A stretch of 45,810 nt of DNA from Geobacteraceae bacterium (GTDB lineage Bacteria > Desulfobacterota > Desulfuromonadia > Geobacterales > Geobacteraceae): NCBI GenBank assembly GCA_009773645.1, contig WSYB01000029.1, positions 1-45,810 on the forward strand, given 5' to 3'. Numbering within the stretch: the first letter of the stretch is position 1; every line of letters starts with the position of its first letter. The notes beneath the pieces are model-generated. The model had not been told where the DNA came from. It searched no databases and worked only from the letters and a program-made list of their open reading frames with translations. Positions 18,367 through 21,730 of this stretch are shown here, one piece after another. The position numbers were made by a program, and so were the translations under genes.

Positions 18367-18534
18367 AGCGCCACTACAACACAAGAAACGCCCCTAAAGG
18401 CCCCGAACACGGGCTGTCATCGGCCTGTCCCGGCTCGCTCCCCTTACCCGCATGATAAAATGTCGAACTCTGAATGCGCGCCTGGGCACACGGGCCAGTT
18501 CCGGCCCGTAAACTACAATGTTCAGGAGGATCAT

Positions 18535-19380
18535 ATGAACAAAAAAATTCAAAACATGGCGGTATTCATCGAATTCCTCGCAGGCTCCGGCCTGGCCATC
18601 TTTTTTCACCTGGTGCTCAATTACGCGGAAGCGGCCTATATCATCTTCGGCATTGGCGTTCTCCTGTCCCTTGCCACGTATCTCCTGCGGGAGGACATAG
18701 AGAAGACCAGGGAGGGGCTCCTCGAACAGTATCACCACGCCCACGAGCTCACCTTTGCCCTTGCCCAGGTAAGCGATCCCGAATGCCAGGCAAAGGCCCA
18801 CGAGATCATGGCAGGGGCCAAGAGAACTATTTCACTCCTCCAGCAGGGGTATATCCCGCTGGACGAAACCGAGTTCTACCTGGAAGGGGCCAAATGTTCG
18901 GACCAGGCCACCCGGCAGATCAAGGCCGTTGACCCTCTCACCATCGGGTGGGGCACACGCGGGGCGCTTCTCAACTTCTATCAGGCCAACCTGCGCGCCC
19001 TGGACCGCGGGGTGAAGATCACCCGCATCTTTGTCGTCAGCCGTGAAGAACTGGCCGACCCCGAGGCGCAAAAAGTGCTCCTCAGCCAGTACCGGGACGA
19101 CATCGACGTGCGCATCGCCTATCGCGATGAACTCCCGACGGCGAGCGACATCAGCGGCAGGGACACCAACAGCTCATTCGACTTCGCCATTTACGACGAC
19201 CGGGTGGCGACCGATGTCTTCGTGCAGCCCGGCAAGTACTTCGGCAGAAAGACCAGCGAGCCCGGCCAGGTCGGGAAGTACCTGCACCTCTACGACCTGA
19301 TCGAGCACAGCTCCCACGCCATTACCGTCGAAGACGAGCGGGTTATCCTGGCTGCCGATATCCTCTCCAAGGCGTCATAA
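18535..19380 (+). CDS. Membrane-anchored protein of unknown function, PLD-like fold suspected
   Basis: A 281-residue protein starting at 18535, with AGGAGG at a good distance; the open frame extends to 18460 without start signals. Two hydrophobic segments (about residues 9-30 and 33-52) form a hairpin anchor, followed by a charged helix and a soluble domain. The block ALDRGVKITRIFVV, followed by a strand-rich region ending FDFAIYDDRVATDVFVQPG, resembles the layout of phospholipase-D-like domains, but no HKD motif is present, so catalysis is unlikely. I do not recognise the family. It has its own promoter and long leader. It lies upstream of the riboswitch-controlled cytochrome without an obvious terminator between, so read-through is possible. 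Confidence 0.75.
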   Translation: MNKKIQNMAVFIEFLAGSGLAIFFHLVLNYAEAAYIIFGIGVLLSLATYLLREDIEKTREGLLEQYHHAHELTFALAQVSDPECQAKAHEIMAGAKRTISLLQQGYIPLDETEFYLEGAKCSDQATRQIKAVDPLTIGWGTRGALLNFYQANLRALDRGVKITRIFVVSREELADPEAQKVLLSQYRDDIDVRIAYRDELPTASDISGRDTNSSFDFAIYDDRVATDVFVQPGKYFGRKTSEPGQVGKYLHLYDLIEHSSHAITVEDERVILAADILSKAS

Positions 19381-19462: not shown

Positions 19463-19492
19463 TTGACTTTCCGATTTTGTTTGCGGTATGGT
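19463..19492 (+). promoter_or_regulatory. pgcA: Promoter of the riboswitch-pgcA unit
   Basis: TTGACT (19463-19468), 18-base spacer, TATGGT (19487-19492). Transcription would start about 25 bases ahead of the first aptamer. Confidence 0.5.
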
Positions 19493-19523
19493 TTGGCCGC
19501 GAAAGATAATAACTCAGCTTACA

Positions 19524-19608
19524 GATAGACGATAATACTAAACCACCTGCGAGGGTGGGACGGAAAGCCTACAGGGTCTCACAGAGACAGCCGGGTCGCC
19601 GAAATATC
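19524..19608 (+). promoter_or_regulatory. GEMM-I riboswitch, cGAMP-type (GEMM-Ib), copy 1
   Basis: The segment has the GEMM core: ACTAAACC, a P2 hairpin closed by GCGA (CCACCT/GGGTGG), GGACGGAAAGCC, the P3 hairpin GGGTCTC/GAGAC, and GCCGGGTCGCCG. GATA/TATC ends can close P1. The tetraloop-receptor arrangement and the AATACTAAACC joining segment match, as I recall it, the Geobacter GEMM-Ib aptamers that bind 3',3'-cyclic AMP-GMP. Ligand choice (cGAMP or c-di-GMP) is inferred from that resemblance. Confidence 0.9.
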
Positions 19609-19634
19609 AAAAGATATTCGGTCCCGGCTTTTTT
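19589..19634 (+). terminator. Expression-platform terminator of riboswitch 1
   Basis: AGCCGGG...CCGAAATATC pairs with GATATTCGG...CCCGGCT, followed by TTTTTT. The 5' arm is the 3' strand of the aptamer, so folded aptamer and terminator are mutually exclusive. Ligand binding should therefore allow read-through (an ON switch). Confidence 0.8.
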
Positions 19635-19758
19635 GTTTCCGGGAACGGAGCAATAGACCGGGACCGCAAAGGAGGTGATAGAGAAAGAGGTATTAACAAG
19701 AAAGGAGAATCAACCAAGTACTTAACTTCCAAATTCCTGGCACATCAGGACGCTTGGT

Positions 19759-19843
19759 GATAGACGATAATACTAAACCATTCGCGAGAATGGGGCGGAA
19801 AGCCTACAGGGTCTCACAGAGACAGCCGGGTTGCCGAAATATC
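19759..19843 (+). promoter_or_regulatory. GEMM-I riboswitch, cGAMP-type (GEMM-Ib), copy 2
   Basis: A second aptamer 235 bases after the first, nearly identical in core (GATAATACTAAACC, GGGGCGGAAAGCC, GGGTCTC, GCCGGGTTGCCG). P2 differs in sequence but keeps pairing (CCATTC/GAATGG), a compensatory change that supports function. Both copies are followed by GGGACCGCAAAGG(A/G)GGTGA, so the duplicated unit extends past the terminator. Confidence 0.9.
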
Positions 19844-19870
19844 CCTCGAGATTTTGGCCCCGGCTTTTTT
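19824..19870 (+). terminator. Expression-platform terminator of riboswitch 2
   Basis: AGCCGGG (19824-19830) pairs with CCCGGCT (19859-19865), with further pairing inside, then TTTTTT. It overlaps the aptamer's 3' strand as in copy 1. Two terminators in series would require both aptamers to be occupied. Confidence 0.8.
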
Positions 19871-19915
19871 GTTGCCGACGATGGAACATCGCCGGGGGAC
19901 CGCAAAGGGGGTGAC

Positions 19916-19963
19916 ATGAAGGTACTTTGTCACAAAGGAAATCATCTTTCAGCTTGTCGTTAA
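19916..19963 (+). CDS. Possible 15-residue leader ORF before pgcA
   Basis: MKVLCHKGNHLSACR starts 4-5 bases after AAAGGGGGTGA, a strong ribosome-binding site. The homologous site after riboswitch 1 (AAAGGAGGTGA, near 19671) has no matching ATG. The peptide ends 21 bases before pgcA. It may couple translation to the switch or be a relic of the duplication. Confidence 0.35.
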   Translation: MKVLCHKGNHLSACR

Positions 19964-19984
19964 ACGCAAATTTATGGAGGTATC

Positions 19985-21730
19985 ATGAGAATAAAAAGCA
20001 CGCTATTATCAGCATTATCAGCACTATTGGTCATTTCCATCTTTTCTCTTGCAGGCTGCGGCGGAGGGAGCGGCGCCACCACGAGCGGCACGGGCGCCGC
20101 CGGGATTAGCAAAGGGACCATAACCGCCGTGGCGGAGAGCGGCAACCCACAGGTTGCCGGCATAACCTCCGCCACCCCTTCCGGCAGCATCCAGCTGAAT
20201 GGCGTTAACTTTAAGACCTCCGGCGCCAAGATCAAGATCCACGGCGTCGAGAGCCCGCAGAACGAGCTTAAAGTCGGCATGGTGGTCAAGGTAAAGGGTT
20301 CCGCCGATGACGACGAAAAGTCCGGGACCGCCGAGGAAGTCGAGATTGAAGAGAGCCTCAGGGGGCCGGTAAGCGCGGTGAATCCCCTGGCAGGCACGCT
20401 GGTCGTCCTTCAGCAGACCGTCGCCGTGGACGACAAGACGGTGTTCGACGGCGTAACCGGCTTGAACGCGCTGGTACAGGGAACCATGGTGGAGGTGGCT
20501 GGGCTCACCGACGCCAGCGGCGTCATCCTGGCGACCCGCATCGAGAAGAAATCCGTCTCCTTCGTTCCAAACAGCACTAAGGTGGAGCTCAAGGGGACCG
20601 TCGGCGAAGTCTTCGCCGGGAGCTTTACCATCGGCACCCTGAAGGTGAACAGCAGCAAGGTGCCGACAGGGCTCGAAACCGGCTCCCTGGTCGAAGTGGA
20701 GGGTACGCTGGCCGCACTCAATGGCCCCCTTACCGCGACCGAAGTGGAGCTTGAGAAAACGGACATGGAAAATGGCCAGTCCGTGAGCATTGAAGGGTTC
20801 GTCACCAACTTTGTATCGTTTGCCAGCTTCAAGGTGAACGGCATTGTCGTGAGCACCCAGGGGCTTTCCGATCCCGGCATCAAGACGAACGTCAAGGTGC
20901 GCGTAGAAGGGAAAATCGTGGACGGCGTCCTGGTGGCAAGCAAGATCGTAATTCTCACTGCCGGCACTCCCGCGCCGAATCCGAATCCTGCCCCTGCACC
21001 TACCGCTGGGAAAACCGTCTATGACAGCAAGTGCGCCGGCTGCCACACGCTTACCGGTACGGGCATTATGAATCTCAGCGGCAAAGGCGCCAAGGTTGCC
21101 GCTAAATTAGCCGCAGGGCACAACGGCATATCCCTTTCAGGCACCCAAATCGCTGACCTGGCGGCATTCCTGAGCCCGCAACCGGTTCCAACGCCGACGC
21201 CTACGCCTACGCCTACGCCGACCCCAACGCCTACGCCTACGCCTACGCCGACGCCTACGCCTACGCCTACGCCGACCCCAACGCCGTCCCCTGCCGCGGG
21301 AAAAACCATATATGACACCAAATGCGCCGGCTGCCACTCCCTTACCGGCACGGGCGTTATGAATCTCGCGGCCAAGGGCGCAAAAGTTGCCGGCAAATTG
21401 GCGGCCGGGCACAACGGCATAACCCTGTCAGCTACCCAAATCACTGACCTGGCTGCATACCTGAATGCGCAACCGGCCCCGGCACCGGCACCGGCACCGG
21501 CACCGGCCCCGGCACCGGCACCTGCCCCATCAACGACTGCCGGTAAAACCGTCTATGACAGCAACTGCGCCGGCTGCCACAATCTCGGCACCTATGACCT
21601 TTCCGGTTCTGCTCCCAATCTTTCCAAGAAAGGTTCAACGGCCAGCAGCAAGATCAATGGCGGCCATATGGGAATATCGCTGACAGCCTCTCAAATCAGT
21701 GACTTGTCGGCATTCCTGAACGCAAACTAA
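19985..21730 (+). CDS. pgcA: PgcA-like extracellular triheme cytochrome c
   Basis: A 581-residue lipoprotein-type cytochrome. Signal peptide with lipobox SLAGC (Cys 25). Residues about 35-330 form several beta-rich repeats of the DUF5666 kind (motifs such as GTMVEVAGL, GSLVEVEGTL). Three small heme domains follow with CAGCH at 350-354, 447-451 and 528-532, each with K-GA-K-A-L-AGHNGI-like helices. A Pro-Thr linker joins domains 1 and 2 and a Pro-Ala linker joins 2 and 3. Three heme domains on PT/PA tethers behind a GEMM riboswitch is the arrangement of Geobacter sulfurreducens PgcA (GSU1761), which carries electrons to Fe(III) oxides outside the cell. GGAGG precedes the ATG by 6 bases. The linkers are encoded by hexamer repeats (21188-21290 and 21475-21525). 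Confidence 0.87.
   Translation: MRIKSTLLSALSALLVISIFSLAGCGGGSGATTSGTGAAGISKGTITAVAESGNPQVAGITSATPSGSIQLNGVNFKTSGAKIKIHGVESPQNELKVGMVVKVKGSADDDEKSGTAEEVEIEESLRGPVSAVNPLAGTLVVLQQTVAVDDKTVFDGVTGLNALVQGTMVEVAGLTDASGVILATRIEKKSVSFVPNSTKVELKGTVGEVFAGSFTIGTLKVNSSKVPTGLETGSLVEVEGTLAALNGPLTATEVELEKTDMENGQSVSIEGFVTNFVSFASFKVNGIVVSTQGLSDPGIKTNVKVRVEGKIVDGVLVASKIVILTAGTPAPNPNPAPAPTAGKTVYDSKCAGCHTLTGTGIMNLSGKGAKVAAKLAAGHNGISLSGTQIADLAAFLSPQPVPTPTPTPTPTPTPTPTPTPTPTPTPTPTPTPTPSPAAGKTIYDTKCAGCHSLTGTGVMNLAAKGAKVAGKLAAGHNGITLSATQITDLAAYLNAQPAPAPAPAPAPAPAPAPAPSTTAGKTVYDSNCAGCHNLGTYDLSGSAPNLSKKGSTASSKINGGHMGISLTASQISDLSAFLNAN
21188..21290 (+). repeat. CCNACG hexamer tandem repeat encoding the Pro-Thr linker
   Basis: About 17 hexamers of CC(A/T/G)ACG type, coding alternately Pro and Thr. 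The length is likely to vary between strains by slippage, changing the distance between heme domains. A second array (CCGGCA/CCGGCC, 21475-21525) encodes the Pro-Ala linker. Confidence 0.8.

Follow-up and report, generated by a model that had tools for sequence, protein, structure and literature searches.

Two GEMM-Ib riboswitch units predicted to act in series upstream of a PgcA-like cytochrome gene in a Geobacteraceae bacterium

The analyzed DNA, 45,810 nucleotides from a Geobacteraceae bacterium (GenBank assembly GCA_009773645.1, contig WSYB01000029.1; herein referred to as the window), contains two complete riboswitch units of the GEMM-Ib type upstream of a gene for a triheme PgcA-like cytochrome. 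These units very probably represent a pair of ON riboswitches that sense 3',3'-cyclic GMP-AMP (cGAMP) and act in series on one leader. The prediction rests on the ligand-contact bases and terminators of both copies, on compensatory changes in their aptamers, and on analogy with characterized tandem riboswitches.

Two GEMM-Ib units and their action in series

Exactly two matches to the Rfam family RF01051 were found in the window by cmscan, both above the gathering score of 35 (Table 1). The base at ligand position 20 is A in both copies (19537 and 19772), which assigns them to the GEMM-Ib (cGAMP) type; position 11 of RF01051 was taken by us to be position 20 of Vc2, the base before the junction C-G and U-G pairs. 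The first-pass annotation of this DNA had claimed two GEMM-Ib aptamers in series and had named a covariance-model search and inspection of the ligand-contact base among its checks; both results agree with the claim. In the GEMM-Ib aptamer of Gmet_0970, the A20G replacement shifts selectivity from cGAMP to cyclic di-GMP (c-di-GMP) (PMC6456294; papers are cited herein by PMC number, for the parts of their text that were available). In total, the genome containing the window has 19 RF01051 matches, with position 20 read as A in 13 of them and as G in 6.

A candidate source of cGAMP was found in the same genome. The GGDEF domain L065 (G000:C73:32884-33354; G, C, and L numbers denote genomes, contigs, and loci) matches PDB 6d9m with 266.7 bits. 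This structure, whose entry describes a fusion of an endolysin with a response receiver sensor diguanylate cyclase, is presumably a Geobacter GacA construct. Both L065 and 6d9m have Ser at the site where most other GGDEF domains have Asp, and Ser at this specificity site is taken here as the mark of Hypr-type GGDEF domains. A second Ser-type GGDEF domain of this genome, L067 (G000:C4:45622), is more distant from 6d9m. By these comparisons, the genome is predicted to encode a close relative (L065) of the GacA-type cGAMP synthase. Because the sensor type (A20) and the synthase type (Ser GGDEF) agree, cGAMP is proposed as the signal. Both copies, which by sequence comparison share the position-20 base and 87.5% identity over the 112-nt unit, would bind 3',3'-cGAMP.

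As the first-pass annotation had stated, each copy has its own terminator, formed by a G+C-rich hairpin followed by six T residues (Table 1). The AGCCGGG strand belongs both to the 3' side of the aptamer helix P3 and to the 5' arm of the terminator. When copy 1 was folded by energy without ligand, this switching strand was part of the aptamer up to length 99, was mixed at 102, and had joined the terminator at 105. For copy 2, the corresponding strand paired within the aptamer at lengths 78-84, formed a local hairpin at 87-102, and was taken up by the terminator from length 105 onward. The cGAMP riboswitch of pilM in Geobacter metallireducens, which is a single riboswitch rather than a pair but is likewise an ON switch with a terminator that takes aptamer strands, loses ligand binding from transcript length 102, its terminator taking the ligand-pairing C75 (PMC9262584). 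From the folding lengths and this precedent, the window copies look like standard ON switches. A generic terminator scan picked up neither riboswitch hairpin; its only two sites were on the minus strand. The probable reason is that its rules for stems and loops are ill-suited to long, interrupted stems.

Compensatory changes in helix P2, also claimed at first pass, were confirmed. Between copy 1 and copy 2, two P2 pairs are changed on both sides (C-G to U-A twice) and one pair is changed on one side (U-G to C-G). A covariance model, herein referred to as R1, was built from 24 GEMM-Ib units including their terminators. In the aptamer helices of these units, 97.1% of the pair cells are standard, and 6 pairs have two-sided changes, as compared with 2.5 in shuffles; such changes were found in four of the six P2 pairs. 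In the other 22 units, 51 columns are invariant, and both window copies match every one of these. Both copies are training rows of R1, and their R1 scores (Table 1) are partly obtained by construction.

The product of the downstream gene contains three CXXCH motifs and has DUF5666 and cytochrome c matches, with the DUF5666 domains at the N-terminus, in line with its initial description as a triheme PgcA-like cytochrome. Proline-rich PTP and APA repeats were also found, together with a lipoprotein-type start and an LAGC lipobox identified by eye. PgcA has been described as having three CXXCH motifs, PTx or PAx repeats between them, and a lipid attachment signal (PMC5732950), and all of these features are present in the window product. 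The closest homologue, G034:C1:838942 (48% identity, E 5e-117), has an identical domain make-up. Two GEMM-Ib copies were also found 5' of this gene (spacing 228) and of G003:C1:232622 (spacing 193), a homologue with four CXXCH motifs. Among the 37 listed places with similarity to the cytochrome, two adjacent copies occur at 6, three copies at 2, and one proximal copy at 9, and the other 20 lack a copy within 2.3 kb; at G007:C4, G008:C10, and G009:C1, the proximal copy is accompanied by another about 1.1 kb further off. Three of these eight arrays (the window, G034:838942, and G003:232622) precede open reading frames (ORFs) with at least three CXXCH motifs, and the remaining five precede smaller, partially similar ORFs (155-219 codons) that contain a single CXXCH.

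In the proposed mechanism, RNA polymerase would start upstream of copy 1 and would then face two independent decisions. When 3',3'-cGAMP is present, it would stabilize the aptamer, in which the AGCCGGG strand would be held. When the ligand is absent, AGCCGGG would pair with CCCGGCU, and transcription would end at the T run. The cytochrome gene would be reached only by transcripts passing both terminators, and expression would therefore be the product of two read-through probabilities. As a consequence, the leak would be multiplied down, the dose response would become steeper, and the threshold would be higher, with some loss of maximum output. We infer read-through at each terminator and the use of a single upstream promoter, as well as the purpose of the arrangement, namely stringent control of an exported cytochrome that is costly to make.

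These effects were estimated with a two-in-series model, with a simple binding curve for each switch. In the model, the half-maximal dose is increased 2.4-fold, the 10-90% range is narrowed from 81-fold to 40-fold, a leak of 10% is reduced to 1%, and a maximum of 80% is reduced to 64%. In theory, the gain in steepness would be modest, and the reduction of the leak would be the larger effect. The model agrees with reporter data from Bacillus thuringiensis on a naturally occurring triple array of c-di-GMP-I riboswitches, for which activities of 74%, 25%, and 8% were observed at low c-di-GMP for one, two, and three copies, respectively (PMC4759541), and with the term "pseudo-cooperative" applied to tandem riboswitches (PMC9481103). 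For the tandem leader of GSU2885 in Geobacter sulfurreducens, RNA-seq detected no RNA by the second riboswitch when gacA was absent (PMC6456294). The falls reported for G. sulfurreducens are 16-fold for the omcAHG operon and the lipoprotein transpeptidase operon GSU0181-0183, 10-fold for pgcA, and smaller, 2-3-fold, for pilMNOP and omcST (PMC6456294). In the survey described below, 17 members of an L,D-transpeptidase gene family (YkuD in member L120) follow arrays and 3 follow sampled singles. If GSU0181 belongs to this family, the largest effects go with arrays; this is only suggestive, promoters and genes being different.

By analogy with these systems, serial ON switches would provide a lower leak and a steeper response. 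The initial proposal of a logical AND with a steeper or stricter response is thus retained in part: the stricter and steeper response is supported by analogy and by the model, whereas a two-input AND is not, because the same ligand-selecting base in both copies points to pseudo-cooperation instead.

Arrays in the family and alternative explanations

A comparison of single and tandem copies, another check named at first pass, was made with R1 in 48 genomes of the same family reached by the cytochrome similarity search. Units located on the same strand with a start-to-start spacing of no more than 400 were considered to be an array. The cut-off was E 1e-5 in one search, from which 19 of 135 rows were dropped as low-scoring (no more than 60.1 bits), and E 1e-12 in the others; the cytochrome search had supplied the loci of 11 of the 24 R1 training units. 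In total, 542 GEMM-Ib units were found, including 392 single units, 64 doublets, 6 triplets, and 1 quadruplet. Thus, 150 of the units are located in 71 arrays of two to four copies, and at least one array was found in 35 of the 48 genomes. The window pair is the sole array in its genome. In the quadruplet (L160, G039:C1:3033391-3034091), four GEMM-Ib units in series are followed by an ORF of 177 codons with a signal-like start.

Downstream ORFs were picked by script, 3 of the 71 arrays being without one, and a random sample of 80 of the 392 singles was used as the control. CXXCH motifs were found in 32 of 68 ORFs behind arrays and in 7 of 80 behind sampled singles (p 1.6e-7). By protein family, CXXCH families comprise 9 of 18 behind arrays and 1 of 26 single-only families (p 5e-4), a 34-member group that mixes Fn3-like and diheme proteins being scored as non-cytochrome. 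These p values are rough because orthologues are not independent. According to the alignment, position 20 is A in 144, G in 5, and C in 1 of the 150 array copies, and A in 78 and G in 2 of the 80 singles; the sole C (L151) reads A by eye.

Adjacent copies in an array have a mean identity of 0.896 (79 pairs), as compared with 0.846 for different loci of the same genome (652 pairs). Ten pairs of related arrays were selected by hand. In nine of them, copies occupying the same position are more alike than the two copies within one array, the exception being L126/L136; this likeness indicates that both copies have been kept.

Several observations weigh against the proposed pair of serial switches at the window locus. 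A single GEMM-Ib unit is enough 5' of related genes, one of which is the C9 paralogue of the window's own genome. The strand of copy 2 leaves the aptamer pairing for its local hairpin already at length 87-102, and the simple two-state picture is therefore cleaner for copy 1. No covariation was found in the terminator helix in the 24-unit alignment, because its 5' arm is aptamer sequence. The sigma-70-like site at 19463, where the feature of the first-pass annotation begins, is the single plus-strand site of this type ahead of copy 1, and the promoter evidence it provides is weak because shuffled versions of the region have 0.8 sites on average. Furthermore, copy 2 of the window resembles the two G034 copies (0.94 and 0.93) more than copy 1 of the window does (0.85 and 0.84). 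The two G034 copies are 0.96 alike, and position-by-position orthology is absent between the window and G034; reduplication or conversion is likely to have occurred at these arrays, as judged from the identities. Finally, a directional difference between first and last copies in some arrays, including the window, may reflect a division of labour.

This last observation bears on an explanation in which the copies are specialized, with different affinities or speeds, and shape the response unlike two equal switches. The window copies do differ in P2, the P3 base, and the terminator loops, in keeping with their 87.5% identity. At the base of P3 (GCCGGG-TC or -TT), TC is found in the first copy and TT in the last one in all nine arrays that differ in this respect (the window, L104, L127, L128, L135, L151, L152, L159, and L167, of which L127, L128, and L135 are orthologues), and the reverse was never found. 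However, the first and the last copy share this feature in 48 of the 71 arrays (27 with TT and 21 with TC), and two ON terminators in series would be unable to respond below the weaker one. Specialization is regarded as unlikely.

Control by a single working copy, the other being a drifting duplicate, appears improbable. The duplication does extend past the functional unit, and P3 of copy 1 starts from a mismatched A-C pair at its base; however, the P3-base pair is non-standard in 8 of the 24 units as well, and both copies retain all 51 invariant columns, strong terminators, and P2 pairing through compensatory change. Partial units found beside complete ones in the window's genome, near L007 (1664-1720, minus strand) and L013 (1411-1460, minus strand), also speak for such drift. 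They consist of the 3' aptamer strand and a terminator-like hairpin, with the 5' half missing; they are possibly decayed arrays, and copies may therefore also be lost.

A promoter between the copies, which would yield two transcripts with the copies in parallel and for which the spacer of about 120 nt has room, is very improbable: the promoter scan, whose scope did not extend to other sigma factors, found no plus-strand sigma-70-like site there, and the tandem leader of G. sulfurreducens has no RNA detectable by its second riboswitch without gacA, as action in series predicts (PMC6456294).

Layout of the locus

The features of the locus are summarized in Table 1, together with the mixed loci described in the next section.

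Table 1. Coordinates of the predicted features in the window and positions of the mixed loci in other contigs
Feature	Position	Strand	Evidence
Sigma-70-like promoter candidate, TTGACT-18 nt-TATGGT	19463..19492	+	9/12 consensus match, 5' of copy 1
Copy 1, complete GEMM-Ib unit (aptamer and terminator)	19524..19637	+	R1 134.4 bits, training row
Copy 1 aptamer, RF01051	19527-19603	+	42.6 bits, E 4e-5
Copy 1 intrinsic terminator, AGCCGGG...CCCGGCT then T6	19589..19634	+	Hairpin -22.1 kcal/mol
Repeated tail, GGGACCGCAAAGGAGGTGA	19660..19678	+	Repeat D3
Copy 2, complete GEMM-Ib unit (aptamer and terminator)	19759..19873	+	R1 138.3 bits, training row
Copy 2 aptamer, RF01051	19762-19838	+	46.7 bits, E 3.9e-6
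Copy 2 intrinsic terminator, T6 after hairpin, same aptamer overlap	19824..19870	+	-21.4 kcal/mol
Repeated tail, second occurrence, GGGACCGCAAAGGGGGTGA	19896..19914	+	Repeat D3, 95% identical
PgcA-like cytochrome gene, 581 aa	19985..21730	+	CXXCH count, domain matches, homologue
Mixed loci L254-L262	G006:C28, G003:C1:1681417, G042:C63 and C50, G007:C21, G008:C10, G009:C1, G037:C26, G046:C486		

The duplicated segment of about 160 nt exceeds the aptamer alone and includes the aptamer, the terminator, and a short tail, GGGACCGCAAAGGRGGTGA. The matching repeat blocks lie within 19517-19678 and 19752-19914, 235-236 nt apart. Assembly duplication as the origin of the two copies was rejected because the copies are only 87.5% identical, differing at about one base in eight.

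Together with the next base, the tail at 19660-19678 forms an 11-nt Shine-Dalgarno (SD)-like run with no ATG behind it. Runs of 8-11 nt identical to part of an SD string were found in 7 of the 79 intercopy spacers, as compared with a mean of 0.6 and a maximum of 2 in 30 dinucleotide shuffles. The spacers noted are that of the window and the related ones L103, L106, L145, L148, L149, L150, and L157, the run of the window being the longest (11). No ORF of at least 80 aa was found between the window copies. In a search for leader peptides between copies, no ATG-led ORF of at least 8 codons with an SD was found in the window spacer either, and across the 79 spacers there were 8 rows of short SD-led ORFs, some of them nested or repeated. 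An ORF of 15 codons, MKVLCHKGNHLSACR, is located at 19916-19963, right after the second SD-like tail and before the cytochrome gene; by eye, it is not present in G034.

The gene upstream of copy 1 (18460-19380) has no Pfam or NCBIfam match. It is 76% identical to the L245 gene, which follows a single GEMM-Ib unit in G034. In total, relatives of this gene were found behind single GEMM-Ib units at L180, L184, L236, and L245, and no such unit precedes the window gene. Because of these relatives, a third copy was sought in the window; no additional or degenerate copy was found in the R1 search up to E 5.

Mixed arrays, related systems, and biological meaning

Arrays that combine A20 and G20 copies were found outside the window. 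The best 150 RF01051 matches of the 48 genomes were crossed with the R1 matches, and the resulting counts are lower bounds. In at least nine loci of eight genomes (L254-L262, Table 1), one or more cGAMP-type units with a terminator precede a G20 aptamer at a distance of 158-251 nt. Eight of these distal aptamers match RF01051 with 71-86 bits and one matches RF03167. No T-run terminator was seen behind the distal aptamer in these loci. Instead, it is followed by an anti-SD strand complementary to the SD region of the next gene. The complement is 7-8 nt long by script in six loci (L254-L259) and 9 nt long by eye in L261 and L262, and it contains one G-U pair in L260. The letters of the anti-SD strand vary among the loci (ACTCCTTC, AGTACCTC, and ACCTCCTTG). 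The genes behind L254-L262 encode repeat-rich exported proteins, Fn3-like by eye, without CXXCH motifs.

Additionally, 5 of the 71 R1 arrays (L127, L128, L135, L144, and L163) have A20 in the first copy and G20 in the second one on the same GEMM-Ib scaffold. In all 14 mixed arrays identified, the cGAMP-type unit comes first and the G20 copy follows; several of these arrays are orthologues, which corresponds to fewer independent events. The mixed arrays are predicted to respond to cGAMP and then to c-di-GMP, the ligands being assigned by one base. No account of mixed cGAMP/c-di-GMP arrays was found in a literature search, with most subscription papers outside its reach. In the available part of PMC9481103, the logic-gate table includes adenosylcobalamin (AdoCbl) with c-AMP-GMP, as well as glycine and AdoCbl with c-di-GMP-I; c-AMP-GMP with c-di-GMP is not among its combinations.

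Tandem riboswitches of related types have been published, and the suggestion of the first-pass annotation that the tandem form may be little described did not hold. Tandem cGAMP riboswitches are known in G. sulfurreducens (PMC6456294), and 347 doublets and 12 triplets were reported for c-di-GMP-I (PMC9481103). Thermodesulfobacteriota and Deinococcota show an enrichment of contiguous c-di-GMP riboswitches (PMC12452182). A search for tandem and related terms gave no match in the available part of PMC8835794.

The GSU2885 omcAHG leader of G. sulfurreducens resembles the window in having two serial cGAMP-type ON riboswitches before a cytochrome operon and, as predicted for the window, GacA as the source of cGAMP (PMC6456294). 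The window gene is PgcA-like, unlike GSU2885, and pgcA of G. sulfurreducens is treated as being under one riboswitch, GSUR3008 (PMC6456294). Complete riboswitches of the same class are also found in series in Bc3-5 of B. thuringiensis, where they provide more stringent, digital control; in contrast to the window, Bc3-5 is of the c-di-GMP type, has three units, and belongs to a surface-protein operon of Bacillus (PMC4759541). The window pair resembles the pseudo-cooperative tandem riboswitches, in which independent riboswitches for the same ligand precede one ORF (PMC9481103; PMC12452182): its two copies are predicted to share a ligand, each aptamer has its own expression platform, and no ORF is located between the copies. 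In the available parts of these two papers, unlike in the present analysis, same-class doublets are not divided into A20 and G20 types. As far as the compared literature goes, the occurrence of a tandem 5' of a PgcA-like gene is new; the available parts of the papers on G. sulfurreducens pgcA name one riboswitch.

Taken alone, the window locus is one more case of a published type of control. Doubling of the switch should make accidental activation of the gene harder. A tentative scenario, which we consider plausible without favouring it, is that this family commonly tightens the control of extracellular cytochromes by duplicating cGAMP riboswitches in series, and that such duplication also provides raw material for two-messenger gates. 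In this scenario, G20 replaces A20 in the distal copy after duplication, or the cGAMP-type copies are followed by a c-di-GMP-I aptamer that has a translational platform; the leader would then weigh cGAMP before c-di-GMP, and the window pair would represent the homogeneous stage. Opposing roles in Geobacter respiration have been described for cGAMP and c-di-GMP (PMC6456294). If their ligands are as predicted, the mixed arrays would be leaders sensing two different cyclic dinucleotides at the RNA level. It is common in the family for two to four cGAMP-type switches to form an array, and such arrays are biased toward cytochrome genes, which makes the relation between the number of switches and the stringency of control of extracellular electron transfer genes testable.

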